IMG/VR virus record: IMGVR_UViG_3300010885_007215 | Span: 1 to 28,637 of that record | Strand: one strand, 5' to 3' | DNA length: 28,637 nucleotides | Source of the DNA: a virus | Shown here: positions 1 to 28,637 of the stretch, piece after piece | Position numbering within the stretch: position 1 is the stretch's first letter | How the letters are laid out: every line of letters starts with the position of its first letter | Translations under genes and position numbers: made by a program | The notes under the pieces: generated by a model | Database searches by the model: none | Seen by the model: the letters and a program-made list of their open reading frames with translations, nothing else | Told to the model about the DNA's origin: nothing

Positions 1-93
1 ACGCATGATGGATTTTTCTGATGCTACGAAAAGTGCTTCAGCGACGATGCTAGGTAGCAGGTCGTTTAGGGTTGTTGTATTTGTTAATGCCAT
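1..93 (-). CDS. Major capsid protein, N-terminal fragment (cut by window edge)
   Basis: Thirty-one codons run in frame off the left edge, starting MALTNTTTLNDLLPSIVAEA and continuing LFVASEKSIMR. The start ATG has a strong ribosome binding site (AAAGGAG) just upstream. The gene follows the scaffold gene directly, the usual place for a major capsid protein. The N-terminal pattern (short leader, a helix with 'IVAEALF', then a basic 'S.MR') resembles N4 gp56/P22-like coat proteins, but 31 residues are too few to assign a family. The probable C-terminus of the same gene lies at the opposite end of the window. Confidence 0.7.
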   Translation of the reverse strand, partial: MALTNTTTLNDLLPSIVAEALFVASEKSIMR

Positions 94-114
94 TATAGGC
101 TCCTTTGGTTTGGT

Positions 115-795
115 TTAGCCAATGCCGTTATCTTTGCGGTACTGGCGATATAAGTCACGATGGGCTGGATTCTTCATATCCAACTTGGTGATATCTAATT
201 TGCCTTGGCCTGAATTGGCAACGCTGGACTTGGTATGTGTGGTAGCAGGGTTTGCGGAAACAAAATGCGGATTCGAATCAAGGAACTCCCGCACTAGGTC
301 TTGCACTCCTAATGGTTCACCACCGTCATTATAACGAACTGAACCTTTTGCATCTACTACTTCTACTTCACCTTCAGGATTAAGTCTTACCTGTGGAGTC
401 AATAGTGCTTTTACTTGTTCTGCATTCACAGCACGGTACTGTGCGGCGGCTGAGAGTAAAGGCGTATTAACTTTGTATTCCTTAATCACGCTGTCTCGTT
501 TCTGGATTTCGGCATCCTTTTTTGCAGCCAATTCTTGTAGAGTTTTTTCAAACTCACCACGCTTGATCTGTTGTTCCTGTTGACGACGATTGGCTTCCTC
601 ACGGAGGCTGCGTAGTTCTTCAGGATCGCCTAGATCCTCGTAGGGCTTGAGAAGTTTCTTCTGTAATGAACCCTTCATACGGGCCATCATGTTGTCTACT
701 TCATCTTGCGTATAAGTTTTGGTTGCTTGTGCCTGATTTTCAGTATCGCCTGTAGCATCAGTTGCTGTGTCGTTTGCCAATGTTGTATCGGTCAT
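115..795 (-). CDS. Capsid scaffolding protein
   Basis: The 226-residue product is acidic at the N-terminus and has a long charged helical middle (about residues 40-110) rich in Glu, Lys, Gln and Arg and likely to form a coiled coil. The C-terminal tail is short and basic. This layout and its position just before the capsid gene are typical of phage scaffolding proteins, which template procapsid assembly and are then removed. The start is preceded by AGGAGGCGAGG. A hydrophobic patch near residues 108-125 (TPLLSAAAQYRAVNAEQ) may contact the coat. No protease motif is visible, so a scaffold-protease fusion is unlikely. Confidence 0.75.
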   Translation of the reverse strand: MTDTTLANDTATDATGDTENQAQATKTYTQDEVDNMMARMKGSLQKKLLKPYEDLGDPEELRSLREEANRRQQEQQIKRGEFEKTLQELAAKKDAEIQKRDSVIKEYKVNTPLLSAAAQYRAVNAEQVKALLTPQVRLNPEGEVEVVDAKGSVRYNDGGEPLGVQDLVREFLDSNPHFVSANPATTHTKSSVANSGQGKLDITKLDMKNPAHRDLYRQYRKDNGIG

Positions 796-826
796 TGTTA
801 CCTCGCCTCCTCTGGAGTAATGTGTG

Positions 827-835
827 TTTATTTAT
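827..835 (-). promoter_or_regulatory. ATAAATAAA motif upstream of scaffold gene
   Basis: Read on the minus strand this 9-mer is ATAAATAAA, 32-40 bases before the scaffold start. The same 9-mer stands at a similar distance before two other structural genes (7779-7787 and 10151-10159). It resembles T4-type late promoter cores (TATAAATA), but no late sigma factor is seen here, so it may only be an AT-rich leader. Confidence 0.3.
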
Positions 836-846
836 GTTGTTTGGGA

Positions 847-1356
847 TTATCGTCGCCGAAATATGGCACAGTAGTCAGTCCATACATCAGCAACAGGTGG
901 AATCAATCTCACACTCACAAGATCAAGGTCATATCTTGATCTCTTGGCCCATTTAACCAAGGCCTGGGCTGAATCTGGATAGAATCTCCAGCAGTCCACA
1001 GGAAATCTATGTATGGGTCCATTGGAGGGTGCATTGATGTACACAAGACCACCAGGACGACAGATCCTTACCATTTCTAAGAATGTTAACCAGAAAAATT
1101 CACTGTGTTCTAACACACTGCTGGCAATCACAAGATCAGCACAAGCAGGAGCAAGTGGAAATTGGTAAGCATCTGTCAACACAACATCAACACCAGGACC
1201 TGCCACATGATCTAGTCCTGTGTAGGTACTGCCCTCTGGTGCATGAGATCTAAGACCACCATTAACATCTTGACTGCCTATTTCTACTATATGCATGTGA
1301 CTTTTTGCATATTCATGCAGAAATTCACGTCCAGCAGTCATTGCGGTATCATGCAT
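847..1356 (-). CDS. Class I SAM-dependent methyltransferase
   Basis: The 169-residue product has the Rossmann methyltransferase motifs in order. Motif I is IVEIGS (residues 23-28). An acidic strand end follows in YTGLDH, then LTDAYQFPL (motif III-like), ADLVIASSVLEHSE (motif IV and the helix after it) and the post-I motif RPGGLVYINAP. These match the Methyltransf_11 type, which methylates small molecules, sugars, lipids or proteins; the substrate cannot be read from the sequence. The start overlaps the stop of the previous gene as TAATG. Its place between small basic head-module proteins and the scaffold suggests late expression and possibly modification of a virion or host-surface component, which is inference. 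Confidence 0.8.
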   Translation of the reverse strand: MHDTAMTAGREFLHEYAKSHMHIVEIGSQDVNGGLRSHAPEGSTYTGLDHVAGPGVDVVLTDAYQFPLAPACADLVIASSVLEHSEFFWLTFLEMVRICRPGGLVYINAPSNGPIHRFPVDCWRFYPDSAQALVKWAKRSRYDLDLVSVRLIPPVADVWTDYCAIFRRR

Positions 1357-1520
1357 TATTTTTTAGGTGGGTTGAACTTGGATTTCTTGCTCTTGGGTGC
1401 GGCTGCGCGAGCCACGCTGAGTGCAATAGCAATCGCTTGCTTTTGTGGTTTACCATGTTTCATCTCTGTAGAAATGTTCTTGCTGATTGTTTTTGCTGAA
1501 TAACCTTTTTTCAATGGCAT
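1356..1520 (-). CDS. Small basic head-module protein (54 aa)
   Basis: The product begins MPLKKGYSAKTISKNISTEM and ends in a lysine-rich tail (SKKSKFNPPKK). The middle KPQKQAIAIALSVARAA is a likely amphipathic helix. Short proteins of this 'MPLKKGYS.KTI..NI..E...GKP.KQA.AIAL..AR' type are frequent in phages and related to the DUF6496 kind; their function is unknown. I chose this start over a longer in-frame one at 1589 because it has AAGGAG at good spacing, directly after the upstream gene's stop. The basic charge suggests nucleic-acid contact. Confidence 0.75.
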   Translation of the reverse strand: MPLKKGYSAKTISKNISTEMKHGKPQKQAIAIALSVARAAAPKSKKSKFNPPKK

Positions 1521-1530
1521 GATCTGCTCC

Positions 1531-1716
1531 TTATTTTGGTTTGATAAATCTTGTTCTTGTTCCTGCTGCCTTGAGGTCTGCTTGTGCAATCCTCATGCCA
1601 GTGTTGAAACTAGAAGAACTCTTGGTTAGTTTACGCCCGCCTCGGTTGGCATAACCATAACCTGCTCTATGTCCATCGCAGACTTCTTTGCAGGGTTTTC
1701 CTCTATAGGTTGCCAT
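1531..1716 (-). CDS. Small basic protein of unknown function (61 aa)
   Basis: The product is 61 residues, begins MATYRGKPCKEVCDGHRAGY and is rich in Arg, Lys, Gly and Ser, with the sequence CKEVCDGH near the N-terminus that could hold a metal or a disulfide. The second half (SFNTGMRIAQADLKAAG) looks helical. It sits between two other tiny basic ORFs and ends just before the ribosome binding site of the next gene, so all three are probably translated together. Function is not known; packaged DNA-contacting or head-decorating roles are possible guesses. Confidence 0.65.
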   Translation of the reverse strand: MATYRGKPCKEVCDGHRAGYGYANRGGRKLTKSSSSFNTGMRIAQADLKAAGTRTRFIKPK

Positions 1717-2131: not shown

Positions 2132-3736
2132 TTAGTTGTTCCTTGCAGCGGCAGCACCTGCATCAATGATATCTTGCAAGATTAGTTCTGGATGCAGTGC
2201 TAGGATTTCATCATTGGAATAGCCTTCCATCAACATGCCTTGAATATGTTCAAGTCTTTGTGCTTGAGTAAAGTTTGCTAGGCTAGGATGTTCACCTTCT
2301 GTGGTCACAGGTGTGGTGGGTGTTGTGGTGTCTGGCAAATTCTCCAAACTGGCCTGTATCTTCTCAATCTCATCAATCTCGGCTTGATACATGGCCTGTT
2401 CACGGCTTTCTTCATACTGTATTTCATAGCGTGGATCTTCCAGAAGTTCACGCACACGATATTCAACCAGTGCTCGTGCTTCTGGTGTTTGCACACTGCC
2501 TGCAATGGTCTGTAGACTACGTAGTGCATTTGGAACATCACGCACATTGAATTCATCTGGATATTCAATCTCTCCATCAAACGCAGTGCCTTGATACAGT
2601 GCATACCAGCGCCAGATCTGTTCTTCTGCCAGTTCAAGATTGTCAGCAAACTCTGCCAGGCGTGCATTCAGCAACTGGAATTCTGTTTCCATTGCCACAC
2701 CTGATAAACTGCGTGATTCTGTGGCACGAATAGCACCTGTGTTGGCCATCTTGTCAATGGAGTTCACAAGATTGGTAATTGCTGTGTAGATCTGATTGAT
2801 GTCTGTGCTCACATTCAACAGATATGGCTTGAGTCCAGGGTCCATACCGTCTGGCATGAGTGCAACTGAACCTGCTCCTGCTGATGCTTCCACATCCACT
2901 GTCTTTACCAGCGTAGGATGTCCATTGATACGAATACTTTGTTCAACTTCGCTGTGTAGATTATAGATCATGCGCTGACAATCAGCAATATCTGATATCA
3001 TGGAGGCACCTATTCCACGCACAGGAGAGCGTGTGCCATAGGCAATGACAGCAGGAATACGTCCTAGTCCGTTGGGTTCAATGATCTCATCTACTATTCG
3101 TCTTGCGTTGTGATTCACCTGTGTGGTACGAATCTCTTCTGGTGTCCAGGTCTTGATAGTACTGAACGTGTCATTGACTTCTTCCACATACTTGAGATAT
3201 ACCAGTGTGTATGCACCTGATGCTTCTCTGCTCCATTCCCAGTCTGTCACAGTGAGAGGTGTGATCAGGTTCACATAAGGTCGCACTCCACTCGATATTT
3301 CATCAGCACGAGTAGCGGCATTGGTCTGTGGTTTCACAGTGAGTATCCAGCAGTGACCAAACACAGCAGCCCAGATAGCAACATCACGCATGAATGCATC
3401 CATGGTGCGACCATCTAGGTCAGCATCCTGTAGGAAATCTTTGATATTTGCATCATTGTCCAGGCTTGCAAGGTCACGTTCTGGTCCTTTGCGGAACATG
3501 AACGAAGTATAAACTGATATCACACTGCGACAATGGTTGTCTAGTGGTGTGACCGACAGTCTTGTGGCATAGTCATTGTCGCTTTCTGTCACATACTTGG
3601 CAAGATGGTTGCCATCTCGGTATTCTTGTCCACCAATGTAACTCTGCAGTAGAAATTCCCAACGATCTCTGTTGCGTTGATACAGTAGGTTCTGGCTTGT
3701 TACGACGGTATATGCGTCTCTTAGGGTTTGATCCAT
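2132..3736 (-). CDS. Portal protein
   Basis: At 534 residues this has the size, position (directly after terminase large subunit) and character of a phage portal, the dodecameric ring at the head vertex through which DNA is packaged. It resembles the DUF4055 portal type: an N-terminal YIGGQEYRDG segment, a helical stem region around SFMFRKGPER, a GRIPAVIAYGTRSP loop in mid-protein, and the long C-terminal helical part with SLSGVAMETEFQLLNARLAE and AEEQIWRWYALYQG. The C-terminal 100 residues are acidic and rich in Gln and Thr. The start is a few bases after the terminase stop. Confidence 0.88.
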   Translation of the reverse strand: MDQTLRDAYTVVTSQNLLYQRNRDRWEFLLQSYIGGQEYRDGNHLAKYVTESDNDYATRLSVTPLDNHCRSVISVYTSFMFRKGPERDLASLDNDANIKDFLQDADLDGRTMDAFMRDVAIWAAVFGHCWILTVKPQTNAATRADEISSGVRPYVNLITPLTVTDWEWSREASGAYTLVYLKYVEEVNDTFSTIKTWTPEEIRTTQVNHNARRIVDEIIEPNGLGRIPAVIAYGTRSPVRGIGASMISDIADCQRMIYNLHSEVEQSIRINGHPTLVKTVDVEASAGAGSVALMPDGMDPGLKPYLLNVSTDINQIYTAITNLVNSIDKMANTGAIRATESRSLSGVAMETEFQLLNARLAEFADNLELAEEQIWRWYALYQGTAFDGEIEYPDEFNVRDVPNALRSLQTIAGSVQTPEARALVEYRVRELLEDPRYEIQYEESREQAMYQAEIDEIEKIQASLENLPDTTTPTTPVTTEGEHPSLANFTQAQRLEHIQGMLMEGYSNDEILALHPELILQDIIDAGAAAARNN

Positions 3737-3748: not shown

Positions 3749-4990
3749 TTATGCGGCTATTCCATGTCCCCAACGCTGTGGTTGCACAATCGTTGCGTCA
3801 CGATCACGGCGTACAGGGAACAGGTAATCTACCATGTATCCCAGTGCATCATTACCATGATCATATCCTGAGTCTTTGTCTGGAGTTGTTGATCCAGGTT
3901 TGTATGTTTGTTTCTCAAGGCCTTCCAAGAGGCTCTTCACACCAGGTGCAAATGTAAGGTTAACATCTCCGTCCGCATTCTTGAGTCTGGAGTTTACTGC
4001 GTTGATCCTGTCACGAACCGGTGTGTGTGAGTTAGGACACTTCACCACAAAGTTCGCGTTCTGCAGGATGGTGAGGTCAGTAACACCGCCTGCTGACGTT
4101 TTTCTTTGACGTGATGCAGGATCTGGGAAGGCCCAGATGCGGCTTCTTGGATAGCGAGTCTTGATCTCGTCCACCGCTTCTTGGGTGTTAGAAGAAAACA
4201 AACGGATTTCGTCGATGACATGTAGATGATCTCCTGTGCGAACAGCAATCACCACGCTCATTGGGTCAATGTTAAAGTCCCAGCCTGTGTACAGCACCTG
4301 TGTGTCTAGGTCATGACTGCGAACATGCATGCCACGATCAAATGCATAGTAGATCCTGTTGCCTGCTGTTTCAAAGGTGGCCATATATTCCTGACGAAAT
4401 GTTCTTTCATCAAGATCTCGGCGTGCTTGTTCTATTTCATCCTCTGATACATTACCGCCATCCAGTGTGGTATATTGAAAACTTTCCCAGGAATGCTCTA
4501 CAGGATCATGTCCACGTTGATAGAGATCATATGCCCAGTTGCCCTGTCCCATTGGAGTGGAAATGAACATAGCACTTCCACGTTTGTCACTCAGCGTGGG
4601 TCTAAGCACTTCAACCCAGGCTTTTTCATCAATCATCGCGAACTCATCCATGACCACAAAATCTAATCCAACGCCACGCAGGCTATCTGGATTATCTGCT
4701 CCACGAAGACTGATACTAGATCCGTTGATCAGTGTGATGGTGAGATCACTTTCATTTACTTTTCGTGCCCAGCCTAGATCCTGCATGCGCCATTTGAGTG
4801 TGTCCCACACAATCTGTTTGGCTTGACGATAGGTTGGTGCAACATAGAACACACGTTTGTTTGGCTCACGACATCTCTTGGCCAGTTCACGAATAGCCAG
4901 GTGAGTCTTGCCCCAACGACGTCCAGCGATAACCACACGGAATCGCGCACCGCTGTCTGAGACCTCACGCTGACCAGGATTAAGACTCAT
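3749..4990 (-). CDS. terL: Terminase large subunit (packaging ATPase and nuclease)
   Basis: The 413-residue product has a Walker A motif GRRWGKT (residues 23-29), a Walker B VVMDE (112-116) and a coupling segment FISTPMGQGNW. The C-terminal RNase H-like nuclease is marked by Asp in TGWDFNIDP (Asp238) and Asp in DHGNDALGYM (Asp381). It drives DNA into the prohead and cuts concatemers. A longer frame opens at 5044, but I chose MSLNPGQREV because it places the Walker A at the usual distance and leaves only an 11-base overlap with the small subunit. It lies between the small subunit and the portal, the standard order. Confidence 0.93.
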   Translation of the reverse strand: MSLNPGQREVSDSGARFRVVIAGRRWGKTHLAIRELAKRCREPNKRVFYVAPTYRQAKQIVWDTLKWRMQDLGWARKVNESDLTITLINGSSISLRGADNPDSLRGVGLDFVVMDEFAMIDEKAWVEVLRPTLSDKRGSAMFISTPMGQGNWAYDLYQRGHDPVEHSWESFQYTTLDGGNVSEDEIEQARRDLDERTFRQEYMATFETAGNRIYYAFDRGMHVRSHDLDTQVLYTGWDFNIDPMSVVIAVRTGDHLHVIDEIRLFSSNTQEAVDEIKTRYPRSRIWAFPDPASRQRKTSAGGVTDLTILQNANFVVKCPNSHTPVRDRINAVNSRLKNADGDVNLTFAPGVKSLLEGLEKQTYKPGSTTPDKDSGYDHGNDALGYMVDYLFPVRRDRDATIVQPQRWGHGIAA

Positions 4991-5441
4991 CGGGTTTTTT
5001 ATCCTCAGGTGAATCTGTCCATGGTAGCACACGATTGGTATCAACCGTGGTAGGATTGTCTGACTGTCCTAGGAATTGTTTGCCCAGCCAGATCAGCATG
5101 GTTGGGTTGCCATTCAGTGCTACTTCTATCTGTTTGTTTCTCAATCGTGTGTAGAGTTCACTCTCAGCACGTTTGATATAGGGCATGAAATTGTACTTGA
5201 GTGTTTCACGATTAACACCAAAGAAGTTGCTCATTTCTTCAATGGAACAACCAATCTCACTCAATCTATAGACCTCGTCTGGGTCCACTATCTTTTGATT
5301 TGCACCTTTACCAACCACAAGCCCACGCTTGGTTACTTCACCCCATTTGGGATCCTTGCGTGGTTTGAATTCCCATTTGATCTGCACCTTTTGTTCAGGT
5401 GCTTCACTGGGAAGATCAGGCAGTTCTTGTTCTGCTATCAT
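4980..5441 (-). CDS. terS: Terminase small subunit
   Basis: The 153-residue protein has a helix-turn-helix-like core, VYRLSEIGCSIEEMSNFFGV followed by NRETLKYNF (about residues 58-86), then a helical segment ending TMLIWLGKQFLGQSDNP. That last pattern (about residues 113-129) is characteristic of phage small terminases, which recognise the packaging start site and load the large subunit. The N-terminal region (KWEFKPRKDPKWGEVTKRG) is basic. The gene overlaps both neighbours by a few bases. A pac or cos site may lie near this gene but I could not identify one. Confidence 0.85.
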   Translation of the reverse strand: MIAEQELPDLPSEAPEQKVQIKWEFKPRKDPKWGEVTKRGLVVGKGANQKIVDPDEVYRLSEIGCSIEEMSNFFGVNRETLKYNFMPYIKRAESELYTRLRNKQIEVALNGNPTMLIWLGKQFLGQSDNPTTVDTNRVLPWTDSPEDKKPDES

Positions 5442-11226: not shown

Positions 11227-11280
11227 CTCAATCTCCTCCGGAGTATCTGAGTTTAAGCGTCCACTCAGTAAGCAACATCA

Positions 11281-11309
11281 ATTGTATTTAGTTCTGCGTG
11301 AAAAATCAA
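11281..11309 (-). promoter_or_regulatory. sigma70-type promoter P3 for the 11226-10192 operon
   Basis: On the minus strand there is a -35 element TTGATT (11304-11309), a spacer of exactly 17 bases, and a -10 element TACAAT (11281-11286). Transcription should start near 11274. The -35 overlaps the stop of the upstream gene. A small inverted repeat (CTGAGT and ACTCAG) lies in the leader. Confidence 0.6.
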
Positions 11310-11653: not shown

Positions 11654-11660
11654 TGATTAT

Positions 11661-16591: not shown

Positions 16592-16600
16592 TTATTTTCC

Positions 16601-19600: not shown

Positions 19601-20617
19601 ATATGCACGGAATCCTTGCAACAACAGTTTTACATTTTGAAAAATGCTGTTGTTGGTATCCAGTACATAGTTACAGGTCATGATTGGACCTTTGATATTG
19701 GTTGTGGTATAGGTCACTTCAGTGTTACACTTGGCAGCGGCTGTTCTAAAACTTGCCCAGTCAATTTCGCTGTTGCTCATGCCTTTACCATAGCGTGGAT
19801 TACGTAGATAATCAAGTAGAATCTCAGCAGGGTTAGTGCTATAGCGTTCTGTATATCCTGTGCCACCATATGTGAAATTTTCATTTGTAGTTCCTGCCAC
19901 AAGACTGGCCACTCGTTTGCCCAGTATCACTGCGGCAACATCAGGTATGTTTCCTGAGAATGGATTTGCATCTGCTTCGGCCTGTGTTGTAACTGCCAAC
20001 CATTCATAGCGAACAAACAGTGTGGCTAGACCATTATAGGTCATGGTGTTCTTGAAACTAGGAGAATCTTTCATGAGTCCTGTTTTGAGAGCAGTACCTA
20101 GTGTGGACGAGGAAGGAGTATCAAAATACACGCCTGGACTCCAGCGCATGACCACACGCTTGGCATATTTGCCAGTGGTGATAGTGACTTCTTTGCCTGC
20201 ATTTAGATCAGCAATGATTGTGCCATCCAATTGATTGTCATCAATGTAGAGTTCATATAAACCTTCCACTGCGCCTTCACTAAACACATAAGCAACCCAA
20301 AGATATTTGTTTGTGGTTGATCCTGTTTCTGCAAAAGTGATCAATCCACCTGCTTTGCGAAAACCATAGATAACTGGAACACTTTCTGCACCACCTGCAC
20401 GGCGTGTTACCAACACACCCTGTTGGCGTTCTGCTTCGCCACTCATGTCAGGAGCATCAAACAACCCCATGAAAGGTTGTACCACAAAGTCTACAACAGC
20501 GTTAACAACTTTTTCGCCAACCTTGGTTGCACCTAGACCAGCACCAATCACGGCACCAACAGGTCCACCTACAACAAATCCAACTACTGCACCAACTAAT
20601 GAACTAAACCATCCCAT
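16601..20617 (-). CDS. Tail tip / host specificity protein, gpJ-like (1338 aa)
   Basis: The N-terminus is a glycine-rich hydrophobic stretch (FSSLVGAVVGFVVGGPVGAV) as in gpJ-like proteins. The hub region VPVIYGFRKAGGLITF, AEILLDYLRNPRYGKGMSNS and the ATDITSGSAEIIAECVST area match phage tail-tip J-type proteins (Phage-tail_3 and TipJ). After it comes a Thr/Pro/Gly-rich linker at about residues 570-632, then fibronectin-like beta domains to the C-terminus. The size is close to lambda gpJ (1132 residues) but longer. It forms the tail tip and, with the fibres, makes host contact. Start is one base after the GNAT-like gene's stop. Confidence 0.85.
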   Translation of the reverse strand: MGWFSSLVGAVVGFVVGGPVGAVIGAGLGATKVGEKVVNAVVDFVVQPFMGLFDAPDMSGEAERQQGVLVTRRAGGAESVPVIYGFRKAGGLITFAETGSTTNKYLWVAYVFSEGAVEGLYELYIDDNQLDGTIIADLNAGKEVTITTGKYAKRVVMRWSPGVYFDTPSSSTLGTALKTGLMKDSPSFKNTMTYNGLATLFVRYEWLAVTTQAEADANPFSGNIPDVAAVILGKRVASLVAGTTNENFTYGGTGYTERYSTNPAEILLDYLRNPRYGKGMSNSEIDWASFRTAAAKCNTEVTYTTTNIKGPIMTCNYVLDTNNSIFQNVKLLLQGFRAYLPYVQGKYKLKIEDAGNATDITSGSAEIIAECVSTYQIIDATLLDNTYEISGEVTYTGIDRSSKYNQVVVTYVDPRTEFKWSTQQVVYPETEAERLTLVALDGGRENKLEVTFGSITNYAMAKDFAKILLNKSRYAESATLTVSSHAFELEPGDNIRIQSKLLNFGDVPWRVINISHKENYTFDLGCVRNPDFLYPYTRIGEPDRVNPIYVPKGASIYYPIEVDKPDYSLVPPTKAVTTVVGGTTTNPAPTTPTTTTGNIAGGGVGSATGTTNTNGTNTTPTTAPKPAPLTDTIDITNLTYVTKNGLTYARLVFTQPQHAMYAGFDYYFGLGTSTTNVTKGTETTLAGAGKSITTDVGPLAIISTLQATANSYTFWARVKYSTGEYSTNFVKITLNPANSAGAGTNPSETVQVVSQAWPTFTEADLSATNNSIELLTATVPSLSATRTLNITLTQNVRTEALNTNVNGVNCYYKVSTDTYYTKISKVFASYAPGTATTFAFPGDIGVSGGPVLYDFVFRLTYTSGTESTKQYVLPGLRMESPSAIYPYEATYGVNNVTAVKTITEYPIATVDQAPPGAVASALDTKLGIGSANAGINYLVSGTTTGMRFFLDPPDVANRATWRGVKISYRPVVPGTNPALTVYSDSAVTINTNGLRVIDVYGMTFDQVYDIVITPRVSSSGVVQDSNYSLRGVGYVHNRTQSTDFPSNNNWAPGFGFVQMDTNTALAKENQAFDLVDPTVDIIACDNKISLATNCGYTGFSLAGTVVTRTNYIRLQYNGDKITGLSKLYIYRRMRYTGYGTTGSAAGGTYATHYGVGRWERVEITHTGTGNKIVNLRFPTHFKEFSTYYGVAGYATSYPTLVKASLGEPTGSTVIAATGGLYTASDEANQFDLLIVTVVGSTVSNKGLLIRTVPQIASDLSINLISPNKPSIITYASYPTIQDSDYTAGYQRRLSEARTTSVALATSATDANKSDFRIITTVKGTSQVLATPADGPAVV

Positions 20618-20618
20618 A

Positions 20619-21068
20619 TCACACTATTCCTTTCGCGATAACAGTAGCGCCAGGAGCATAGCCAAGATCGTCAAATAGTTCTTGGTATGTTTCAGGGATC
20701 TCATATCCACTGGGTGCTATGATACTCACTGCTGATCTTTCACGTGCCCAGTTTTCAAAAGCATGATGCAACAGCATAAAATTGTCTGAATCTAGGTATG
20801 GTTCCTCTAGATACACATAGTGAATCTGTGAAGTTACTATTCCTGAATGTGGTACAGCACTGATAGCACCTGAAATGAATCCTACCATTTCATTCATGTT
20901 GTTGTAAAAACACAGCCAACAGGCATGAGCATAGATACTGTACTGTCTTACGTTTTGACCCCATGAGTGTTCATCATAGTCTGTGCTAACGAATTGATCT
21001 GCCCAGTGATTACCCATGATAATCACTTGATCAATCGCATCCGGTCCACATGCTCTTACTGTTGCCAT
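20619..21068 (-). CDS. GNAT-fold acetyltransferase-like protein in the tail module (149 aa)
   Basis: The product begins MATVRACGPDAIDQVIIMGN. The C-terminal half shows GNAT features: SQIHYVYLEEPYLDSDNFML, then LHHAFENWARERSAVSIIAP and a final LFDDLGYAPGATVIAKGI. The family transfers acetyl groups from acetyl-CoA. The acetyl-CoA loop is not the canonical Q/RxxGxG/A (here it reads YLDSDNF), so catalysis is uncertain. A GTG at 21083 would add five residues; I prefer this ATG because it overlaps the upstream stop as TAATG. Its place between minor tail and tip genes suggests a virion protein or a tail-assembly role. Confidence 0.6.
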   Translation of the reverse strand: MATVRACGPDAIDQVIIMGNHWADQFVSTDYDEHSWGQNVRQYSIYAHACWLCFYNNMNEMVGFISGAISAVPHSGIVTSQIHYVYLEEPYLDSDNFMLLHHAFENWARERSAVSIIAPSGYEIPETYQELFDDLGYAPGATVIAKGIV

Positions 21069-21679
21069 TAAAGTTTGCCCCACTTGTATTCTGTTTGTCC
21101 AACATAACCTGATTGTTCCATGGAGGTATCATACTGTACACCTTGAAACAACCAATTGCTGTTGTTATTGGTTCGTCTTCCTGCTGTGCGTTCAAAGTCA
21201 CTGAACAAACTAGAACATTCTAGGTTGATCACGCAGGTTCTTGCACTCTCTTGTATACTTACATTAAAAATTTGACCATCAAATAACATCAGTGGTGTAC
21301 CAGCGATTGAAAGATCAGCATAGTTCAAGAATGCCTTGTACACAACCACTCTTGCACCTTCATAGCCAACCTTGTTGGTTATGTCAGTGCTCACATCAAT
21401 GAATTTTTCTATATAGTTGTTGCCAACACCACTGAGTGTGATGCTGAACTTGCCCACACGAACATCAAAGTCTTCTGCCATGCCAGAAAAGTTCATGAAG
21501 TTGCCTTGTGCGCCATAGGTATTGGTTCCTGCTGTGGGTGCAGTGGCACTGTCATAGGCAATGTCAACACCACCTGATGCAAGATAAAGAGGAGTTGAGA
21601 GATGTATTTCTACAAGATCTACTGCTACGAAGTTCTGTCTATAGAATTCTTCGCGTACTGTGTTGCTTATGGTTTTCAT
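21068..21679 (-). CDS. Minor tail protein (203 aa)
   Basis: The product begins MKTISNTVREEFYRQNFVAV and continues DLVEIHLSTPLYLASGG, VRVGKFSITLSGVGN, ending LFSDFERTAGRRTN and YDTSMEQSGYVGQTEYKWG. The 'F..g.r...........D' ending resembles the DUF2163 / GTA gp14-like minor tail proteins that sit near the tail tip. It lies between another minor tail protein and the GNAT-like gene, with starts and stops only a few bases apart. The exact role is inferred from position. Confidence 0.7.
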   Translation of the reverse strand: MKTISNTVREEFYRQNFVAVDLVEIHLSTPLYLASGGVDIAYDSATAPTAGTNTYGAQGNFMNFSGMAEDFDVRVGKFSITLSGVGNNYIEKFIDVSTDITNKVGYEGARVVVYKAFLNYADLSIAGTPLMLFDGQIFNVSIQESARTCVINLECSSLFSDFERTAGRRTNNNSNWLFQGVQYDTSMEQSGYVGQTEYKWGKL

Positions 21680-22300
21680 TTACCATACCTCTCTCATGGC
21701 AAGAGATACTGTGCTGATACCACCATAACTGCTTTCAAATGACTGTTCTGGACTGTCTAGTACCATGGTAAATGGCACGCCATTGGTCCAGATCCTGGTA
21801 CCTGATGGCACTGAACTCACACATGCTCCTGAGAACTGTACATTGGCAGTGCCTGATCCAGAAGTTGTGACTTCTTGTGTTACCATATAGACCTTGCTGT
21901 GTGTGTTAAAACGAAAGAAGTCTCCTGCTTTGAGAATCACTGTGTTATTCACACCTACACCTGTGAGATTCACCCAGCGTTGACCTGCTGCGACTGTGCC
22001 AGTGGTGGCCACATTGTTTGCACTGGTGTTGGAGGCCTTGGAGGTGCTGAGTTCTGGTAACACGATTTCAAAACTGTACATTGGTCCTAGTGCAGTTGCA
22101 CAAAAACCTGTGACTTCACCCAGTTGGCTGGCAGTTAGGCTGGGATATTTTACTTCAAAACTATAGTAACTGTGTCCATGTGCCACACGGCGCAGTTTGC
22201 CAGCATTGGTTTCACTGGTGATAACAGGTGTGTTGATTTTGAAATTAACACTTTGGAAACTGGGCGTTTGTGGAAACTGCCCTGGTGATATATCTGCCAT
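21680..22300 (-). CDS. Minor tail protein (206 aa)
   Basis: The product begins MADISPGQFPQTPSFQSVNF and continues with HSYYSFEVKYPSLTASQLGE, then FCATALGPMYSFEIVLPEL and a beta-rich C-terminus (KAGDFFRFNTHSKVYMVTQE, ending STVSLAMREVW). It follows the tape measure gene with a TAATG overlap, the position of distal tail proteins that start the tail tip. The family is not securely identified. The gene ends directly before the next minor tail gene. Confidence 0.7.
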   Translation of the reverse strand: MADISPGQFPQTPSFQSVNFKINTPVITSETNAGKLRRVAHGHSYYSFEVKYPSLTASQLGEVTGFCATALGPMYSFEIVLPELSTSKASNTSANNVATTGTVAAGQRWVNLTGVGVNNTVILKAGDFFRFNTHSKVYMVTQEVTTSGSGTANVQFSGACVSSVPSGTRIWTNGVPFTMVLDSPEQSFESSYGGISTVSLAMREVW

Positions 22301-25300
22301 TATGCTCTACGTCCTTTTTCTAGTTGTGCTTCTGCAATGATACCAGTAATCATGCCTCTACGTGAAAGCAATAGTCTATCAAATCCTGATGCATCCACTG
22401 TAGAAATATTAAAGTTCACTGTGGTATTACCACCATTCAATTGATTGTTGGGTGTGATTGTACCAGTGGTTGCTGGAGTAAACAATTCTGGTCCTGCTTC
22501 ACCAACCATATAGGTCTGTCCACCCATGACCGGACCACCTAACTGGCGTCCTGAGAATGTCTGGCTACGGATTGCTGCTACCTGTGCAAGACCTGCGGCA
22601 ACCACTGCGGCTGCTGCGATAAAGTTAAAAGGAGGAGGGAATGTTGCCAGTGCCTTGGTTGCACCCATGTAGGTATTGATCAACGCAGAAGCAACGTTGA
22701 ATGCCTTGGCAGCACGGAATGCATCCTTGTTATAGGTACCCAGTTGACCAAACACATAGGCCAATTGATCCACTGTGCCTGTTGCTGCCTGTAGTCCACC
22801 CTGTTGCATCAAGCGCACATTGTCCATGCTTTTGCTCACAGCATCCAGGATACCTGTGTTGGTAACACCTGCCATACGCAGACTGTCTTCCATCTCACGT
22901 TTTCTGATATCATACAGTGCCTGTGATTTCTGTGTTTCCAGTTTGATAATCATTTGATTATACTGGTCTTCAGTGATCAGGGCATTGGCTCTTGCTGCCT
23001 CCAGTGCCTGTTGATCCTGTGCAAACTGTACATTTGTATTAGAAGTAGGATCAAGTTTTGCTACCACACCAGGAGCACGACCAATTGCCTGTGTTGTGGT
23101 CATTGTACCAGAGATTGCACGTCTTGCTTCATCAACTGCCAGTGCTTCTTTGGTAGCCTGTGTTTGGGCTACACTGGCTCGGACTTGCGCTTCGAGTTCT
23201 TGCGTGAGCGCGGAGCCGTATTTGACTCTGGCTTGGTCAACAGCGGCTTGCTGTTCTCTGGTGTTGAGATCGCTGATTGAGAGTCGCGCTTGCTCCATCT
23301 GACTCTGGACCAGATCTTGGTTAATAGCGTCACGAGCCTGGTCAATCTGCTGTTGCTGGACTGCTGCTCTGAGTTGTTGTTCTTGTTCATCTGTAAATGC
23401 ACTCCCGTATTGTAATCTTGCACTGTCTATGGCCTGTTGTTGATTGCGTAGTGCCACATCCTGTGTGGCCAATCTCTTGCTTTCTTGACCCATGGTCAAG
23501 AGTTGTTGTTTGATTGCAGCAGATGCTCGCTCAATACTCAATTGACGAACAGCCGCTGCGAGTTCATTTTGTTTTTCTACTGTGAGTGCAAAACCATATT
23601 TTAATCTTGCAGCATCAGTGGCTTCCAGTTGTTGTCTAACCAGTGCATCGCCTTGGCTTAGACGATAACCTTCTTCTTTGAATCTAGCGATCTGTGATTC
23701 AATATCAGCATTGGCTACCTTGACTTGATTTTCTTGTATTGCACTGCGTAAAGTACCAATTGCTTCATCTGAAAGTGCTCGACCATGTTTTACTCTCAGT
23801 GCATCCACTGCTTCTGATTCTTTTCTCACAGCAACATCAACAATGCCTAGACGTCTGTTTTGATTGGCTAGATCTAGTACTGTACGAGCAACATCAGCAC
23901 CTGCCACAGCCACTTGATTTGCAAACATCGCAGATTGCAACTGTGACTCTAGTTCAGCAGTGAATGCTTTTCCATACTGTAGTCTTGCACCTTCGGTGGC
24001 TGCAAGCACAGCATTGTAACCTACATCAGTGTATTTTAGTCTATTGCTATCAGCATTTAGTTTGTTAACCTGTTCCATCACAGCAGCATAGGCCTTGGCT
24101 TCTTGTGCTTCTTCAAATGCCAGAGTCAATCTTGCTTTCTGGGTATCAGTCATCTTCAATCCGGCTTTTTCAAGTTTAGCGGATTGATCTGCAATTTCTT
24201 TCATCAAGGCTGCTTCTTGGATGCCTAGATTGATCCTATCACGATCATACTGTGCGGCTGCACGTAGATTTTTAAGATGTTCTTCAAAGTTGGCAAGAGC
24301 ACGTTCAGCGGCTTTGTTGGCCTTGTCGTCTGAAACAACCTGTGCTGGTTTCTTGTATACTTCGTCTGTGGCTTTCTTGAGGTCTTTGGTCTTGGTCAGT
24401 GCCTTGTCAATTGAAGCAAGGTCTGCATCACTTACCAGTTTCACACGCTGTGTGGTAAGAATCTTGCCCATGATAGCATTGATCTCGCTGAGACTCTTCT
24501 TGGCTGCTTCAACCGGAGCACCTGATATGGCACCTGCAATGGTATCAGCAATGAATTTGCCAATGCTAGGGAATATAGCAATGGCTGCTTCACCAACCTG
24601 TAGGAATGCATTGATCAAATTCTGTGCAATGTACAGCGCAATAGTTTTGCTGTTGATACCTGCATCATTCATTGGTTTGATCACACTCTGATAGATCTCT
24701 GTGCCAATCCAGGCCAGGCCAGCAATCAGGATTGCAATCCAGTTCTTGGCAATGGCAGCATTCACAGCCAGTATGGCTGCTTCAAGTCCACCCATGGCAA
24801 TGGTGGCAGCAACTATTCTTTCCACAGCCAGCGTGGCAATAAATGCGGCTGTGCTGATCACTATTTTGTCTAGATGTTCAGCAACAAAACCCAGTGCTGA
24901 TCCCAACGCGGCACTGACACCACTGGTTGTATCAAACTCCATCCACAACTGTGTGGCTGCATTCTTTACTCGGGTGATACCATTGGAGATTGTTTCTGTT
25001 CGCTTGCCAAAGTTGGCCTCAATCTCATCCATGTTGTCCAGGAAAGCATTGCGAAGTATCTCGCCTGTGATCTTGCCTTCTGAACCTAGTTTCTTGAGTT
25101 CACCCACAGTAACACCCATGCTCTTGGCAACCAGGTGCATGATCTGCGGACTGGCTTCCATGATACTGCGGAATTCATCACCTTGCAGTTTGCCACTGTT
25201 GAATGCTTGACTCAATTGCAACAGTACGCTTGAGGTTTCTTGTGCGGTGAGACCTGAAGCAGCAAGACTCTTGCTGATCAGTTCTGTCATTTTCACAACA

Positions 25301-25650
25301 CCAGCACCTGTTAGGCCTGCTGTGTCCTGTGCCATGCTGAGTCTTTGATACAGTTGTGCAACATCCTTGACCTGTTGTCCTGTTTTGTTGCTGATATCAA
25401 ACACTGCTTTTTGTACTCGAGCCAGTTCTTCGCTGGAAGAAGTTACCTGACGTAGTCTATTGGTAAGAGTGGTTGCGCTGTCTGCAAAATCAATGAATGC
25501 ACTGATAGAAGCAGCGCCAATCACAGCACCCAGTGCTCGAGATGCTAGATTGGCTGTGTCACTGAGATTGCCCAGTGCTCGATCAAGATTGCCAAGTGCT
25601 CGTTGAGCATCGGTGGTATCCGCCGTTATCTTAATTTCTGCTTCTGCCAC
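22300..25650 (-). CDS. Tape measure protein (1116 aa)
   Basis: The N-terminus carries the classic tape measure domain: DTTDAQRALGNLDRALGNLS, then QLYQRLSMAQDTAGL, FNSGKLQGDEFRSIMEASPQ and MHLVAKSMGVTVGELKKLG. A hydrophobic membrane-active part lies at about residues 255-315 (LAVERIVAATIAMGGLEAAI, NWIAILIAGLAWIG). The middle is helical with 63-residue repeats (residues 553-848). The C-terminus has LGGPVMGGQTYMVGEAGPEL, the usual ending. The protein sets tail length and probably helps DNA delivery. The start is GTG with AAGGAGA upstream. At about 1.5 angstroms per residue the tail would be roughly 160 nm; that number is inference. Confidence 0.92.
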   Translation of the reverse strand: MAEAEIKITADTTDAQRALGNLDRALGNLSDTANLASRALGAVIGAASISAFIDFADSATTLTNRLRQVTSSSEELARVQKAVFDISNKTGQQVKDVAQLYQRLSMAQDTAGLTGAGVVKMTELISKSLAASGLTAQETSSVLLQLSQAFNSGKLQGDEFRSIMEASPQIMHLVAKSMGVTVGELKKLGSEGKITGEILRNAFLDNMDEIEANFGKRTETISNGITRVKNAATQLWMEFDTTSGVSAALGSALGFVAEHLDKIVISTAAFIATLAVERIVAATIAMGGLEAAILAVNAAIAKNWIAILIAGLAWIGTEIYQSVIKPMNDAGINSKTIALYIAQNLINAFLQVGEAAIAIFPSIGKFIADTIAGAISGAPVEAAKKSLSEINAIMGKILTTQRVKLVSDADLASIDKALTKTKDLKKATDEVYKKPAQVVSDDKANKAAERALANFEEHLKNLRAAAQYDRDRINLGIQEAALMKEIADQSAKLEKAGLKMTDTQKARLTLAFEEAQEAKAYAAVMEQVNKLNADSNRLKYTDVGYNAVLAATEGARLQYGKAFTAELESQLQSAMFANQVAVAGADVARTVLDLANQNRRLGIVDVAVRKESEAVDALRVKHGRALSDEAIGTLRSAIQENQVKVANADIESQIARFKEEGYRLSQGDALVRQQLEATDAARLKYGFALTVEKQNELAAAVRQLSIERASAAIKQQLLTMGQESKRLATQDVALRNQQQAIDSARLQYGSAFTDEQEQQLRAAVQQQQIDQARDAINQDLVQSQMEQARLSISDLNTREQQAAVDQARVKYGSALTQELEAQVRASVAQTQATKEALAVDEARRAISGTMTTTQAIGRAPGVVAKLDPTSNTNVQFAQDQQALEAARANALITEDQYNQMIIKLETQKSQALYDIRKREMEDSLRMAGVTNTGILDAVSKSMDNVRLMQQGGLQAATGTVDQLAYVFGQLGTYNKDAFRAAKAFNVASALINTYMGATKALATFPPPFNFIAAAAVVAAGLAQVAAIRSQTFSGRQLGGPVMGGQTYMVGEAGPELFTPATTGTITPNNQLNGGNTTVNFNISTVDASGFDRLLLSRRGMITGIIAEAQLEKGRRA
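23107..23994 (-). repeat. 63-residue tape measure repeats (189-base period)
   Basis: Five units begin at residues 553, 616, 679, 742 and 805, so 63 residues separate each. The repeated start is D.AR.KYG.ALT.E...., for example DAARLKYGFALTVEK and DSARLQYGSAFTDEQ, followed by a helical A/Q/R-rich part ending R.QQ.A. Four units are full length; the fifth diverges after about 44 residues. Confidence 0.7.
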
Positions 25651-25652
25651 GA

Positions 25653-26164
25653 TTATCTCCTTTTGCTGGCTTTCTTAATCTCTTCTGCTTCTATTTGGTA
25701 GAACGCGATCCAACCACGAAACTCTGTTGTGCTCATTTCCATCACATGTTCTACCAACATACCGAGATCCCGTGCTAATCTGTACATGAACATGAGATCT
25801 CGGTCAGTGGTTAGTTTTTTCTTACTGCGTCCTGATCGTTGTCTTCGTTAACAACATCATTCATCTCACCAACTATACGAATCACCACAGCAGGATCCAC
25901 TTCATTCATGAGTGTGACCTTGTCTGGCATGTTGAACATGCGACTGCCGTCTTCATTCTTTGCACGTTGAACCAGGGTTTCAACCAGTGCTTCTACTGTT
26001 TTGCCTGCCTGCGCTAATTCTATCAAGCGGCTTTGTTCTTTTAGATTGCTGCTGGCCTTGAACCAAATCTTGGTTCCCCACTCAGGCACATCTATGCTTT
26101 TCATATCGCCACCAATGCGATTGCGAAAATGTTCTGTTGCTTTTTGAAGTACATTCTGACTCAT
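25653..26164 (-). CDS. Tail assembly chaperone GT by -1 frameshift (170 aa)
   Basis: The first 117 residues are those of the G-like protein. At codons 116-117 the ribosome can slip on A AAA AAC and continue in the -1 frame for 53 more codons: LTTDRDLMFMYRLARDLGML, then VEHVMEMSTTEFRGWIAFYQ and IEAEEIKKASKRR, ending in TAA at 25653-25655. The T part has the family hallmarks: 'LG.....E.M s..EF..W.aFY'. The position just before the tape measure gene and the ratio-type control are as in lambda gpG/gpGT. The frameshift product is not seen in ordinary ORF calling. Its stop lies three bases before the tape measure start. Confidence 0.8.
25811..26164 (-). CDS. Tail assembly chaperone G (117 aa)
   Basis: The product begins MSQNVLQKATEHFRNRIGGD and continues EWGTKIWFKASSNLKEQSRL, GKTVEALVETLVQRAKNEDG, ending with an acidic VVNEDNDQDAVRKN. 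This size and position (before a T-like frame and the tape measure gene) match lambda gpG and its relatives, which coat the tape measure protein during tail assembly. It ends at a TAA immediately after AAAAAAC, the slippery site. The start overlaps the previous stop as ATGA. Confidence 0.8.
   Translation of the reverse strand: MSQNVLQKATEHFRNRIGGDMKSIDVPEWGTKIWFKASSNLKEQSRLIELAQAGKTVEALVETLVQRAKNEDGSRMFNMPDKVTLMNEVDPAVVIRIVGEMNDVVNEDNDQDAVRKN
25814..25820 (-). promoter_or_regulatory. Slippery heptamer A AAA AAC for -1 frameshift
   Basis: On the minus strand AAAAAAC lies in the correct phase (codons AGA AAA AAC then TAA), the strongest type of X XXY YYZ slippery site. The zero-frame stop is immediately downstream, and the -1 frame is open for 53 codons that encode the T domain. 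Confidence 0.85.
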
Positions 26165-26463
26165 TTGAATTTTCCTTTTACGTTATTTAGAGCAGGTCCT
26201 ATTATGCCCCGACCACGGGTTTGTTTTGACCAGTTTTTCTCTAGTCTTTCAATATACGGTACCCGATTCACTTCCTCAAAACTGCTGTTGCTACGTGTTT
26301 TAGTTTGCCAACCAGCACGAGCACGACCAGATCGAACTGGCGTGTGATCTATCAGGCTTTGATGCAGTTCAGTCTTGATCTGATTAACGAATCGTTTGAA
26401 ATCGTTGCCCAGTTCAGTCTTGGCTGCATCAAGTCCACGAATGGTCACACGCAGTTCAGCCAT
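26161..26463 (-). CDS. HK97 gp10-like protein (100 aa)
   Basis: The product begins MAELRVTIRGLDAAKTELGN and continues IKTELHQSLIDHTPVRSGRA with RAGWQTKT. The 'HTPVRSGRARAGW' motif (about residues 39-51) is the signature of the HK97-gp10-like family, usually placed at the head-tail junction. Its location downstream of the tail tube genes is unusual: the family often lies before them. A basic C-terminus (SKQTRGRGIIGPALNNVKG) is typical. Confidence 0.82.
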   Translation of the reverse strand: MAELRVTIRGLDAAKTELGNDFKRFVNQIKTELHQSLIDHTPVRSGRARAGWQTKTRSNSSFEEVNRVPYIERLEKNWSKQTRGRGIIGPALNNVKGKFK

Positions 26464-26466
26464 GGC

Positions 26467-26904
26467 TTAGGAAGTTAAGAATGCCACGTTGGTACCTGTG
26501 CTATAGCCCAGTGCACCTGAACCCTGGAAGGAGATTGAAGCCTCAACCATACCATCCATGCTGCTGTTCACAGTGTAACCTGTGATCAACAGTGCATTGG
26601 CCCAGAACACAGTGTCTGTTGCACCGTTACTCACGTAGAACTTGCCAGCAATAGGTGCGGCACCCACTGTGGCACTGGTACTACCAATTTGGAAATGTGC
26701 ATTTCCATTAAACTCCACTGGATCAAAATAGATATCAGCGGAACCTGAGAATGAACTCAGTCCTGTTACATAGGTGCGAGCATCTTGTCCCATGATTGTG
26801 GTTTCAATCGTATCCGCAGCAGATTCAACTGAGAAATTACGAACTGAACCCACAGCGATGTTTGCAAATGTTACTACACCATCATTGCCTGTTAATGTTG
26901 CCAT
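26467..26904 (-). CDS. Major tail tube protein, second copy (145 aa)
   Basis: The product begins MATLTGNDGVVTFANIAVGS. It shares NFSVE, DTIETT.MG.D.R.YV, GLSSFSGSADIYFDP and TVNSSMDGMVEASISFQGSG with the adjacent 142-residue gene. These are features of phage tail tube proteins with the beta-sandwich fold, which polymerise as hexameric rings around the tape measure. The middle (about residues 65-105) differs from the first copy. The ribosome binding site is AAGGAG. Confidence 0.8.
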   Translation of the reverse strand: MATLTGNDGVVTFANIAVGSVRNFSVESAADTIETTIMGQDARTYVTGLSSFSGSADIYFDPVEFNGNAHFQIGSTSATVGAAPIAGKFYVSNGATDTVFWANALLITGYTVNSSMDGMVEASISFQGSGALGYSTGTNVAFLTS

Positions 26905-26915
26905 CAGTGTTCTCC

Positions 26916-27344
26916 TTAACTTGCTGCGTAGGTCATTGCACCAGATCCTTGGAAGGAAATAGATGCTTCTACCATACCGTCCATGCTGCTGTTAACAGTA
27001 AAGCCAGTGATGATAATCTCACCTGAGAACTTGTTTGCTGTGGTGTTCAGATAGAGTTCAATCGAGTATGGACTTGTGCCCACTGCACTCAGTGTTGGGT
27101 TTAGACCAATCAGTCCGCTGGCGCTGGAAGTTGGGTACTCTGCTGGGTCAAAATAGATATCAGCAGAACCTGAGAATGAACTCAGTCCTTTCACGTAGGA
27201 ACGTGTGTCGTTACCCATGGTAGTGGTTTCAATTGTGTCAGTGCTGACCTCAACTGAAAAATTGCGTACTGCTGCTAGAGCAGTTGGGGTACCTGCCGCG
27301 TTATCAACCTTGACAACGCCGTTATTGCCTGTTAAAATTGCCAT
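26916..27344 (-). CDS. Major tail tube protein, first copy (142 aa)
   Basis: The product begins MAILTGNNGVVKVDNAAGTP. It shares the conserved start, the GLSSFSGSADIYFDP core and the TVNSSMDGMVEASISFQGSG end with the adjacent 145-residue gene. The central region (about residues 70-110) and the last ten residues differ. Two tail tube genes in tandem suggests either mixed tubes or one tube and one special ring, for example at the tip. The 12-base gap between the genes contains a good ribosome binding site for the second. Confidence 0.8.
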   Translation of the reverse strand: MAILTGNNGVVKVDNAAGTPTALAAVRNFSVEVSTDTIETTTMGNDTRSYVKGLSSFSGSADIYFDPAEYPTSSASGLIGLNPTLSAVGTSPYSIELYLNTTANKFSGEIIITGFTVNSSMDGMVEASISFQGSGAMTYAAS

Positions 27345-27346
27345 CG

Positions 27347-27547
27347 TTATTCTCCTTTATAAGTTTCAATGGTATTGTTGTCTTCGGCGTCTTTTACGGC
27401 TGCCTTGACACGGGCCGGCGGCTTCAAGATGGTAACACCTTCTGCCTGCTCTGAACCAGATTGTTGCCAACCTGCATCCAGATATTCTTGTAATTTTGTG
27501 GGTTTGATGGCTCTTGTGTAGCCATCCTTGGTAACATCTAGTTTCAT
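27347..27547 (-). CDS. Small hypothetical structural-region protein (66 aa)
   Basis: The product begins MKLDVTKDGYTRAIKPTKLQ and continues EYLDAGWQQSGSEQAEG with a basic, then acidic tail. Short proteins with a '..LQ.YL.aGW' motif are common between connector and tail genes in phages, without known function. The start overlaps the upstream stop as ATGA and has AGGGGAG as ribosome binding site. Confidence 0.6.
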   Translation of the reverse strand: MKLDVTKDGYTRAIKPTKLQEYLDAGWQQSGSEQAEGVTILKPPARVKAAVKDAEDNNTIETYKGE

Positions 27548-27984
27548 TTTGCTCCCCTTAGATAGTTGTATTTCACTTGTAGTGTTAGACTAAACTCTGC
27601 AAGTGGTGCCAAGCGACGAACAACTTCTATTCTTGTGACTTGGCTGTCAATCACTCCTGATGCCTGTAGACCTAGATAACGATCTTTTTCCAGTGCATTT
27701 TCAATGCCAGTGAGTAGTTCAGTACGTTTGGTATCAAGATCAGTGCCACGCACATATCCTGACAGTTGATATATCAAGGTGCCTGCTCGTCTGCCAACAC
27801 CAACAGCACCCATGCTTATGGTTTCGCGTTCTTCTAAATCTAGGTGTACAAGAACAGCGGGAAATTGTGTGATTGCCAGTTTGTCTGCTTCAAATGGTTC
27901 TCTTGTGACCAAGAGGATCTGAGGTGTTTGTACTGCTGAAAGTACAGTGACAATTTTAGCCGAGATTGTTTCTCTTAGGCTCAT
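27544..27984 (-). CDS. Probable tail terminator protein, gpU-like (146 aa)
   Basis: The product begins MSLRETISAKIVTVLSAVQT and continues VTREPFEADKLAITQFPAVL, with TLIYQLSGYVRGTDLDTKRT, then ENALEKDRYLGLQASG and a final FSLTLQVKYNYLRGAK. The pattern 'P..p........fPa..v...., ......y.v..yvrg.d......el...ie.aL..D..Lg' and the C-terminal strand '...v.Y.y..g' match tail terminator or tail completion proteins that cap the tail tube. It follows the connector gene with an ATGA overlap. Confidence 0.7.
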   Translation of the reverse strand: MSLRETISAKIVTVLSAVQTPQILLVTREPFEADKLAITQFPAVLVHLDLEERETISMGAVGVGRRAGTLIYQLSGYVRGTDLDTKRTELLTGIENALEKDRYLGLQASGVIDSQVTRIEVVRRLAPLAEFSLTLQVKYNYLRGAK

Positions 27985-28418
27985 CGCTGTAGTCTCAAGG
28001 TAGCAATGGTAACACGTTCTGTATCACTCACTGTGCCTGAGTCGTCCGCATCATACTGTACGCCTTCACGAGTGCAAAGGTCCATCTCGTGTTCAAAGCG
28101 ACCACGATAGTATTCCATCATTACTTGAAATTTATCAGTTTCTGGAGAGAATTGTGTGAGTTTAGGACAGATATGATAGGCTAGAGCATGATACACAGTG
28201 GCCTGTGTCCATTGCGAGGCAGTGAGTAGATCTGCATCTAGGCGAGCAGAGTCTCCAAGTGAAAGACGTTTCTTGTAGGAATTCCACCAACGAACAGTGA
28301 GCACACGGACCACTTCAGTCTGGCTTCTTGCCAGTTCAATGTCAAAGTCCAATTGACCGTAGTCTTGTATTGTGGGTTCTACCTCTAAGAGGTCAGAGAT
28401 TGTTGCGAATATAGCCAT
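27981..28418 (-). CDS. Head-tail connector protein (145 aa)
   Basis: The product begins MAIFATISDLLEVEPTIQDY, with a helical middle (LDADLLTASQWTQATVYHAL, then AYHICPKLTQF) and a C-terminal MEYYRGRFEHEMDLC with GVQYDADDSGTVSDTERV. It matches the head-tail connector (gp6-like / adaptor) family in size, order and helical content. It is the first gene after the capsid gene and its terminator. The ribosome binding site (AAGGA) lies in a small hairpin loop. Confidence 0.65.
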   Translation of the reverse strand: MAIFATISDLLEVEPTIQDYGQLDFDIELARSQTEVVRVLTVRWWNSYKKRLSLGDSARLDADLLTASQWTQATVYHALAYHICPKLTQFSPETDKFQVMMEYYRGRFEHEMDLCTREGVQYDADDSGTVSDTERVTIATLRLQR

Positions 28419-28421
28419 CAG

Positions 28422-28434
28422 CGAGTCCTTCTCG
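28422..28434 (-). promoter_or_regulatory. Ribosome binding site presented in a hairpin loop
   Basis: On the minus strand CGAG-AAGGA-CTCG forms a four-base stem with the Shine-Dalgarno AAGGA as its loop, four bases before the connector ATG. The stem is short but could tune initiation. Confidence 0.35.
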
Positions 28435-28448
28435 TGTAAATTGTTGTG

Positions 28449-28467
28449 CAGTAGGTCCTACCTACTG
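28449..28467 (-). promoter_or_regulatory. Perfect hairpin in the leader of the connector operon
   Basis: CAGTAGGT (28449-28456) and ACCTACTG (28460-28467) pair over eight bases around a three-base loop, between the capsid terminator and the connector gene. There is no T run after it, so it is not a terminator. It may be a processing site, a transcript stabiliser or an operator. Confidence 0.4.
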
Positions 28468-28484
28468 TGTTATTTAGTCCAAAC

Positions 28485-28507
28485 AAAAAGGGCCCTTGTG
28501 AGGCCCT
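28485..28507 (-). terminator. Intrinsic terminator after the capsid gene
   Basis: The minus strand reads AGGGCC, a seven-base loop, GGCCCT, then a run of T. It lies 29 bases after the capsid stop and before the tail operon, and probably limits read-through so that capsid mRNA is made in excess. Confidence 0.75.
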
Positions 28508-28535
28508 CTTCGTAATTGAATAATCCTAGTGTGGA

Positions 28536-28637
28536 TTAAACAATAGTTGAGTCAAATGTTGCTAGAACACCTGCATTGTCATACAACTCGCCTGTGCCAT
28601 AAATTGCACTACCAACGATGTCATAACCGCGGATACC
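28536..28637 (-). CDS. Probable major capsid protein, C-terminal fragment (cut by window edge)
   Basis: The last 33 codons of a minus-strand gene read GIRGYDIVGSAIYGTGELYD followed by NAGVLATFDSTIV and a TAA. The pattern 'RGYDIVGSA.YG.GEL.D..GV' resembles the C-terminus of capsid proteins of the N4 gp56/P22 type. It is followed by a terminator and then the head-tail connector gene, the standard order. It is likely the other end of the capsid gene that begins at 93. Confidence 0.6.
   Translation of the reverse strand, partial: GIRGYDIVGSAIYGTGELYDNAGVLATFDSTIV

Follow-up and report, generated by a model that had tools for sequence, protein, structure and literature searches.

The window analyzed here, which is the whole 28,637-bp stretch, carries all of its plausible genes on the minus strand, as the initial annotation had stated. 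Read along that strand, the terminase, portal, scaffold, and capsid genes come first, then those of the tail and tail tip; an early region of about 3.8 kb follows, and further fiber-like genes lead back to the terminase (Table 1). PHROG and Pfam scans of the window proteins returned head, tail, and packaging families and a methyltransferase. The zinc-ribbon-like early protein yielded a weak structure model (pLDDT of 67).

Table 1. Features of the window and the evidence for each, grouped by region
Feature	Position	Strand	Details
Candidate replication initiator	11661..12473	-	270 aa from ATG at 12473; ORF extends to GTG at 12542
Candidate origin	12177..12403	-	Holds all five exact CGCGAGA sites of the 29,303-bp map
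CGCGAGA sites	12397-12403, 12384-12390 (inverted), 12379-12385, 12349-12355, 12177-12183		Degenerate inverted site at 12303-12308
AT tract, 40 nt, 85% AT	12309..12348	-	Lies between two inverted sites, inside the 50-nt stretch of lowest GC on the map
Linker with small hairpins, including AGCCCAGAGGGCT	12168..12302	-	
Early block, ~3.8 kb	10192..14007	-	No recognizable replication family
176-aa early protein	13477..14007	-	Four conserved cysteines (zinc-ribbon-like); kept in relatives
Major capsid protein, N-terminal 31 aa	1..93	-	Residues 1-31 of the 286-aa protein of contig L002; runs off base 1
Major capsid protein, C-terminal 33 aa	28539..28637	-	Enters at base 28637; stop codon at 28536-28538
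Capsid scaffold protein	115..795	-	PHROG 206, E value 4e-10
Portal protein	2132..3736	-	PHROG 145, E value 8e-62; 43% identical to DSL-LC06 portal
Terminase large subunit (TerL)	3749..5044	-	PHROG 2, E value 2e-52; 52% identical to DSL-LC06 TerL
Probable terminase small subunit	4980..5441	-	PHROG 606, E value 0.009, and position before TerL
Head-tail connector, tail, tape measure, and tail-tip block	14504..28418	-	PHROG/Pfam matches; synteny with G002, G007, G008, and DSL-LC06

Within the tail region, two adjacent and related tail-tube-like genes (26467-26904 and 26916-27344, minus strand) share 74 to 82% nucleotide identity over long stretches, and this tandem duplication is also seen in relatives at the protein level. 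At 25653-26164 (minus strand), a 46-aa ORF lies between the tail assembly chaperone gene (25811-26164) and the tape measure gene, an arrangement in which a programmed frameshift is possible. The tail-tip block includes an acetyltransferase-like gene (20619-21083, minus strand; PHROG 1249), and annotated acetyl- or acyltransferases occupy the matching position in phages DSL-LC06 and HTVC111P. A 695-aa tail-region protein (14504-16591, minus strand) has Pfam beta-propeller (WD40-like) similarity, which is unusual for a phage fiber.

The window record is classed as linear in IMG/VR, and neither an end repeat nor a tRNA gene was found in it. Minus-strand bases 93 to 1 encode MALTNTTTLNDLLPSIVAEALFVASEKSIMR, 31 aa that begin with MALTNTTTLNDLLP and stay open at base 1, and minus-strand bases 28637 to 28539 encode GIRGYDIVGSAIYGTGELYDNAGVLATFDSTIV, 33 aa that end in FDSTIV before a stop codon. 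A portal-protein search of IMG/VR retrieved a 10,526-bp contig (L002; IMGVR_UViG_3300027971_000633), separately assembled and from a sample that may or may not be that of the window, which encodes a complete 286-aa major capsid protein whose termini are the two window pieces (31 + 222 + 33 aa). Positions 1 to 4033 of this contig are 100% identical to window positions 4033 to 1, and positions 4700 to 10526 are 100% identical to window positions 28637 to 22811. The fill between the window ends is therefore positions 4034 to 4699, exactly 666 nt (222 codons), with no further gene there, and it gives a circular map of 29,303 bp, of which the window covers 97.7%. The initial annotation had read both ends as one capsid gene in a nearly closed genome, and the bridging contig bears out both statements; its figure of 64 residues for a direct join was also right, and its estimates of 0.7 to 1 kb for the missing part and about 29.5 kb for the genome were close but slightly too large. 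We regard it as practically certain that the window represents almost the whole genome of a small tailed phage and that this genome maps as a circle.

A common reason for a contig to break is a shared stretch that exceeds the assembler k-mer. The capsid gene has 96.9% nucleotide identity with its counterpart in a near relative (G002; IMGVR_UViG_3300027734_000245), and the two have 200 nt exactly in common, whereas its neighbors, the portal and scaffold genes, are 79% and 87% identical, respectively. Because the capsid gene is nearly identical in the two phages and the portal gene is only 79% identical, the break within the capsid gene is probably an assembly effect, in which case it is unremarkable that both ends fall in one gene. 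The near identity of the capsid genes, next to neighboring genes that differ by 13 to 21%, may itself reflect recent exchange or strong capsid conservation.

Among the relatives fetched with TerL, four have exactly overlapping ends and so form circles (G004, 28,551 bp; G008, 30,025 bp; G005, 26,103 bp; and G013, 25,533 bp), and the gene order is common to the window and its relatives. Circular assembly of the relatives would fit headful packaging, with the circularly permuted DNA that the initial annotation proposed, but would fit cos packaging as well. The closest named record is phage DSL-LC06 (OR003941), a circular lake phage of 29,811 bp in the proposed “Nanhuiviridae” (PMC10611076), followed more distantly by HTVC111P-type pelagiphages. 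The window and DSL-LC06 share the order terminase, portal, scaffold, capsid, and tail (TerL 52%, portal 43%, and capsid 36% identical), and the GenBank annotation of DSL-LC06 lists no replication gene. In contrast to that of the window, the early region of DSL-LC06 is filled with glycosyltransferases, methyltransferases, and HNH genes and lacks the candidate initiator gene described below. In assigning phages to the DSL-LC06 group, its authors used a gene-sharing cluster, VC_342_0 (PMC10611076); judged by related TerL, portal, and capsid genes in the same order on a circle of about 30 kb, the 29,303-bp map groups with DSL-LC06. The Pelagibacter phages HTVC111P, HTVC112P, HTVC026P, and HTVC202P (31.6 to 32.5 kb) have TerL proteins 49 to 50% identical and portal proteins 43 to 44% identical to those of the window. 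DnaB-type helicase, DNA polymerase A, and integrase were not found in HTVC111P, as in the window, but HTVC111P differs from the window in carrying an HTH regulator, a lysozyme, and an annotated DnaD-domain protein and in using both strands for its genes. A TerL scan and an origin-pattern scan of bacterial genome contigs for a prophage or host match were both empty.

No replication family appeared in the PHROG and Pfam scans of the window proteins. Six-frame searches for DnaB_C, DNA_pol_A, IstB/DnaC, phage integrase, and ERF, run on 13 genomes, were empty, whereas the control genomes produced matches; an HTH_3 regulator was found in HTVC111P only. A helicase-loader gene (P or DnaC-like) was likewise not found, with no IstB match in six frames and no Pfam match among the early proteins. 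Because the six-frame searches were empty and their controls positive, the absence of the tested replication families across the lineage is well supported. The statement of the initial annotation that no polymerase, helicase, integrase, repressor, or endolysin is recognizable thus stands for known families. According to the paper on DSL-LC06, every genome of that study has replication proteins such as primase, helicase, and polymerase (PMC10611076). For DSL-LC06 itself this is unsupported, as its annotation lists none and neither a helicase, DNA polymerase A, nor a loader was detected in the six-frame searches. In a joint scan that covered 110 early proteins of twelve genomes, the 25 commonest families listed included endonuclease VII/HNH, methyltransferases, glycosyltransferases, and ferritin-like proteins. 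Genes of 149 to 170 aa adjoin the portal gene in G007, G008, and G009 (L095:2820-3317, L098:8868-9380, and L099:9396-9845) and are probably the three ferritin/Dps-like proteins of the joint scan; the window has other small genes there.

The largest gene of the early block is the candidate initiator gene, and its ATG start is kept by homologues. A single-sequence search for relatives of two early proteins was empty, and an alignment-based search found five loci. Close homologues of the candidate initiator occur in G002, G013, L109, and L111, and distant ones occur in G007, G008, G009, and L083, with leave-one-out profile E values of 6e-6 to 5e-30; a profile built from the distant group alone matches the window protein with an E value of 4e-4. 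The gene was not found in G003, G004, G005, G010, G012, or DSL-LC06, and plasmid and phage collections held no relative. Searches of Pfam and PHROGs with the protein were empty, and PDB sequences gave nothing significant; a protein of an uncultured Caudovirales phage that is 77% identical to it (A0A6J5N5A6) is uncharacterized, with no function assigned. The structure model of the candidate initiator (mean pLDDT of 58.6) starts with a short helix and has, toward the C terminus, a beta-rich domain (about residues 100 to 230) mostly at 75 to 88, and the origin-bearing stretch encodes a very-low-confidence region between the two, as disordered linkers show. A fold search with this model gave no PDB match and, in BFVD, only an uncharacterized phage protein.

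The motif CGCGAGA is confined to the candidate initiator gene, with 5 of 5 occurrences in the window, 5 of 5 in G002, and 5 of 6 in G013. Its sites occupy the 5′ part of the gene, in both orientations, up to about 300 nt past the start codon. General repeat density did not single out this gene, but a scan for 7-mers clustered in two orientations, made with no prior motif, did: CGCGAGA and the overlapping GCGAGAA form the only such clusters of the window genome, and the only cluster of G002 lies at the corresponding region (0.15 to 0.25 clusters expected in shuffles). When codons were permuted synonymously, the observed count of repeated 8-mers was reached in 0 of 1,000 trials for each of five genes. 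Because synonymous shuffles never reach the observed count, the repeats are not a by-product of the protein sequence. Four homologues keep the repeat and AT-tract layout of the window, and of the five genes, four have a spacer of 40 nt between opposite-orientation sites and one has a spacer of 32 nt (81 to 90% AT). The CGCGAGA repeats are not present in the distant homologues. Neither DnaA boxes nor a GC-skew switch was found at the candidate origin, and Rfam gave no match. Contig L116, considered as a further carrier of the site-spacer pattern, was rejected as a chance match with no other similarity.

Beyond the AT tract, the hairpin AGCCCAGAGGGCT occurs once per genome, at the same place, in the window, G002, G013, and G009. 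The folding energy of the linker was below the synonymous-recoding mean in 9 of 9 homologues (z of -1.3 to -3.7, compared with an average of about -0.2 for matched control segments), with linker limits that were chosen after the hairpins had been seen. In a genome-wide folding scan (background mean of -0.6 to -0.9), the gene came first in two genomes, G008 and G002, but only at ranks 11 to 24 in the four others. Since these ranks are uneven and the limits were set after the fact, we take the hairpins as weak support for an origin.

We favor, with moderate confidence, the explanation that the candidate gene encodes a replication initiator and contains its origin, because a rare motif is confined to one gene in three genomes, synonymous recoding destroys the repeats, and the AT tract has a nearly fixed length. 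Weakening this explanation are the lack of a fold match, the absence of the repeats from the distant homologues, and the absence of the gene from several relatives, in which replication must begin by different means. The last point also speaks for a different reading, in which the repeats are an operator, copy-control, or partition site, the protein acts in autoregulation or host takeover, and replication begins at another place, through other proteins or host factors alone. Opposite-orientation sites are typical of operators too, and the protein shows no initiator homology. However, the sites lie inside coding sequence, as far as about 300 nt into the gene, and an operator would not need a fixed-length AT tract, located where the map has its GC minimum and bordered by two of these sites; we consider this reading rather unlikely, though a serious contender. 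The repeats could instead be a packaging (pac) site, as pac lies within an early or terminase gene in some headful phages, but the probable small terminase gene is about 7 kb from the candidate gene and a fixed-length AT tract is not expected of a pac site, which makes this improbable. That the capsid fragments belong to different genes, or that the contig covers part of a larger genome and lacks its replication genes, would fit the linear classification of the record and its lack of end repeats but is ruled out for practical purposes by the bridging contig, identical on both sides, and is opposed by the relatives that close as 25.5- to 30.0-kb circles with matching gene order and by DSL-LC06, a 29.8-kb circle with an annotation free of replication genes.

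If the candidate protein is an initiator, it would bind the CGCGAGAA repeats inside its own gene and melt the adjacent 40-bp AT tract, and the host replisome would then load, perhaps at the hairpins beyond the tract. Binding, melting, and replisome loading are inferred here, as is the packaging mode. The phage would thus encode its own initiator and borrow the host replisome, and given an initiator-like early gene, it probably needs the host for the replisome but not to recognize the origin. In this respect, the description of the genome as being without replication genes is accurate for described families but incomplete, as one of the early genes is built like an initiator gene that contains its origin. 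The reading as a whole, comprising closure of the map, the missing replication enzymes, and the initiator with its origin, seems to us fairly probable. More tentatively, the candidate protein could represent a new initiator family with no assigned fold, with an origin (inverted CGCGAGAA sites, a fixed-length AT tract, and hairpins) within its own gene, in a lineage of small aquatic phages that have no helicase, loader, or polymerase of their own and replicate on the host replisome.

In several small aquatic phages, replication genes seem to be missing entirely. If our explanation is correct, part of that lack is a gap in naming, as an initiator would be present that lies outside the described families and is betrayed by the layout of its origin DNA.

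The nearest parallel is found in lambdoid phages, in which gene O carries the origin, with its iterons and AT-rich tract, in its middle part (PMC7466680). The candidate protein has no homology to lambda O (BLASTP E value of 7.9; hhalign probability of 0.1%), and unlike those of lambda, the window sites occur in both orientations and flank the AT tract on both sides, in a genome with no recognizable P-like loader gene. As a control, lambda O passed the synonymous-codon test (0 of 300 trials), and its AT tract ranks among the lowest 0.7% of 50-nt windows by GC content. The lambda iterons escape the stricter two-orientation scan, which is therefore conservative. Like gene O, the candidate gene, of similar length, holds repeats beyond what its protein requires and an adjacent AT-rich tract, both within the linker-coding part. 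Judged from its sequence, it is laid out like an O-type system and is not a member of the O family; if its protein is an initiator, it would add another case, seemingly of independent descent, in which the linker of an initiator gene contains the origin.
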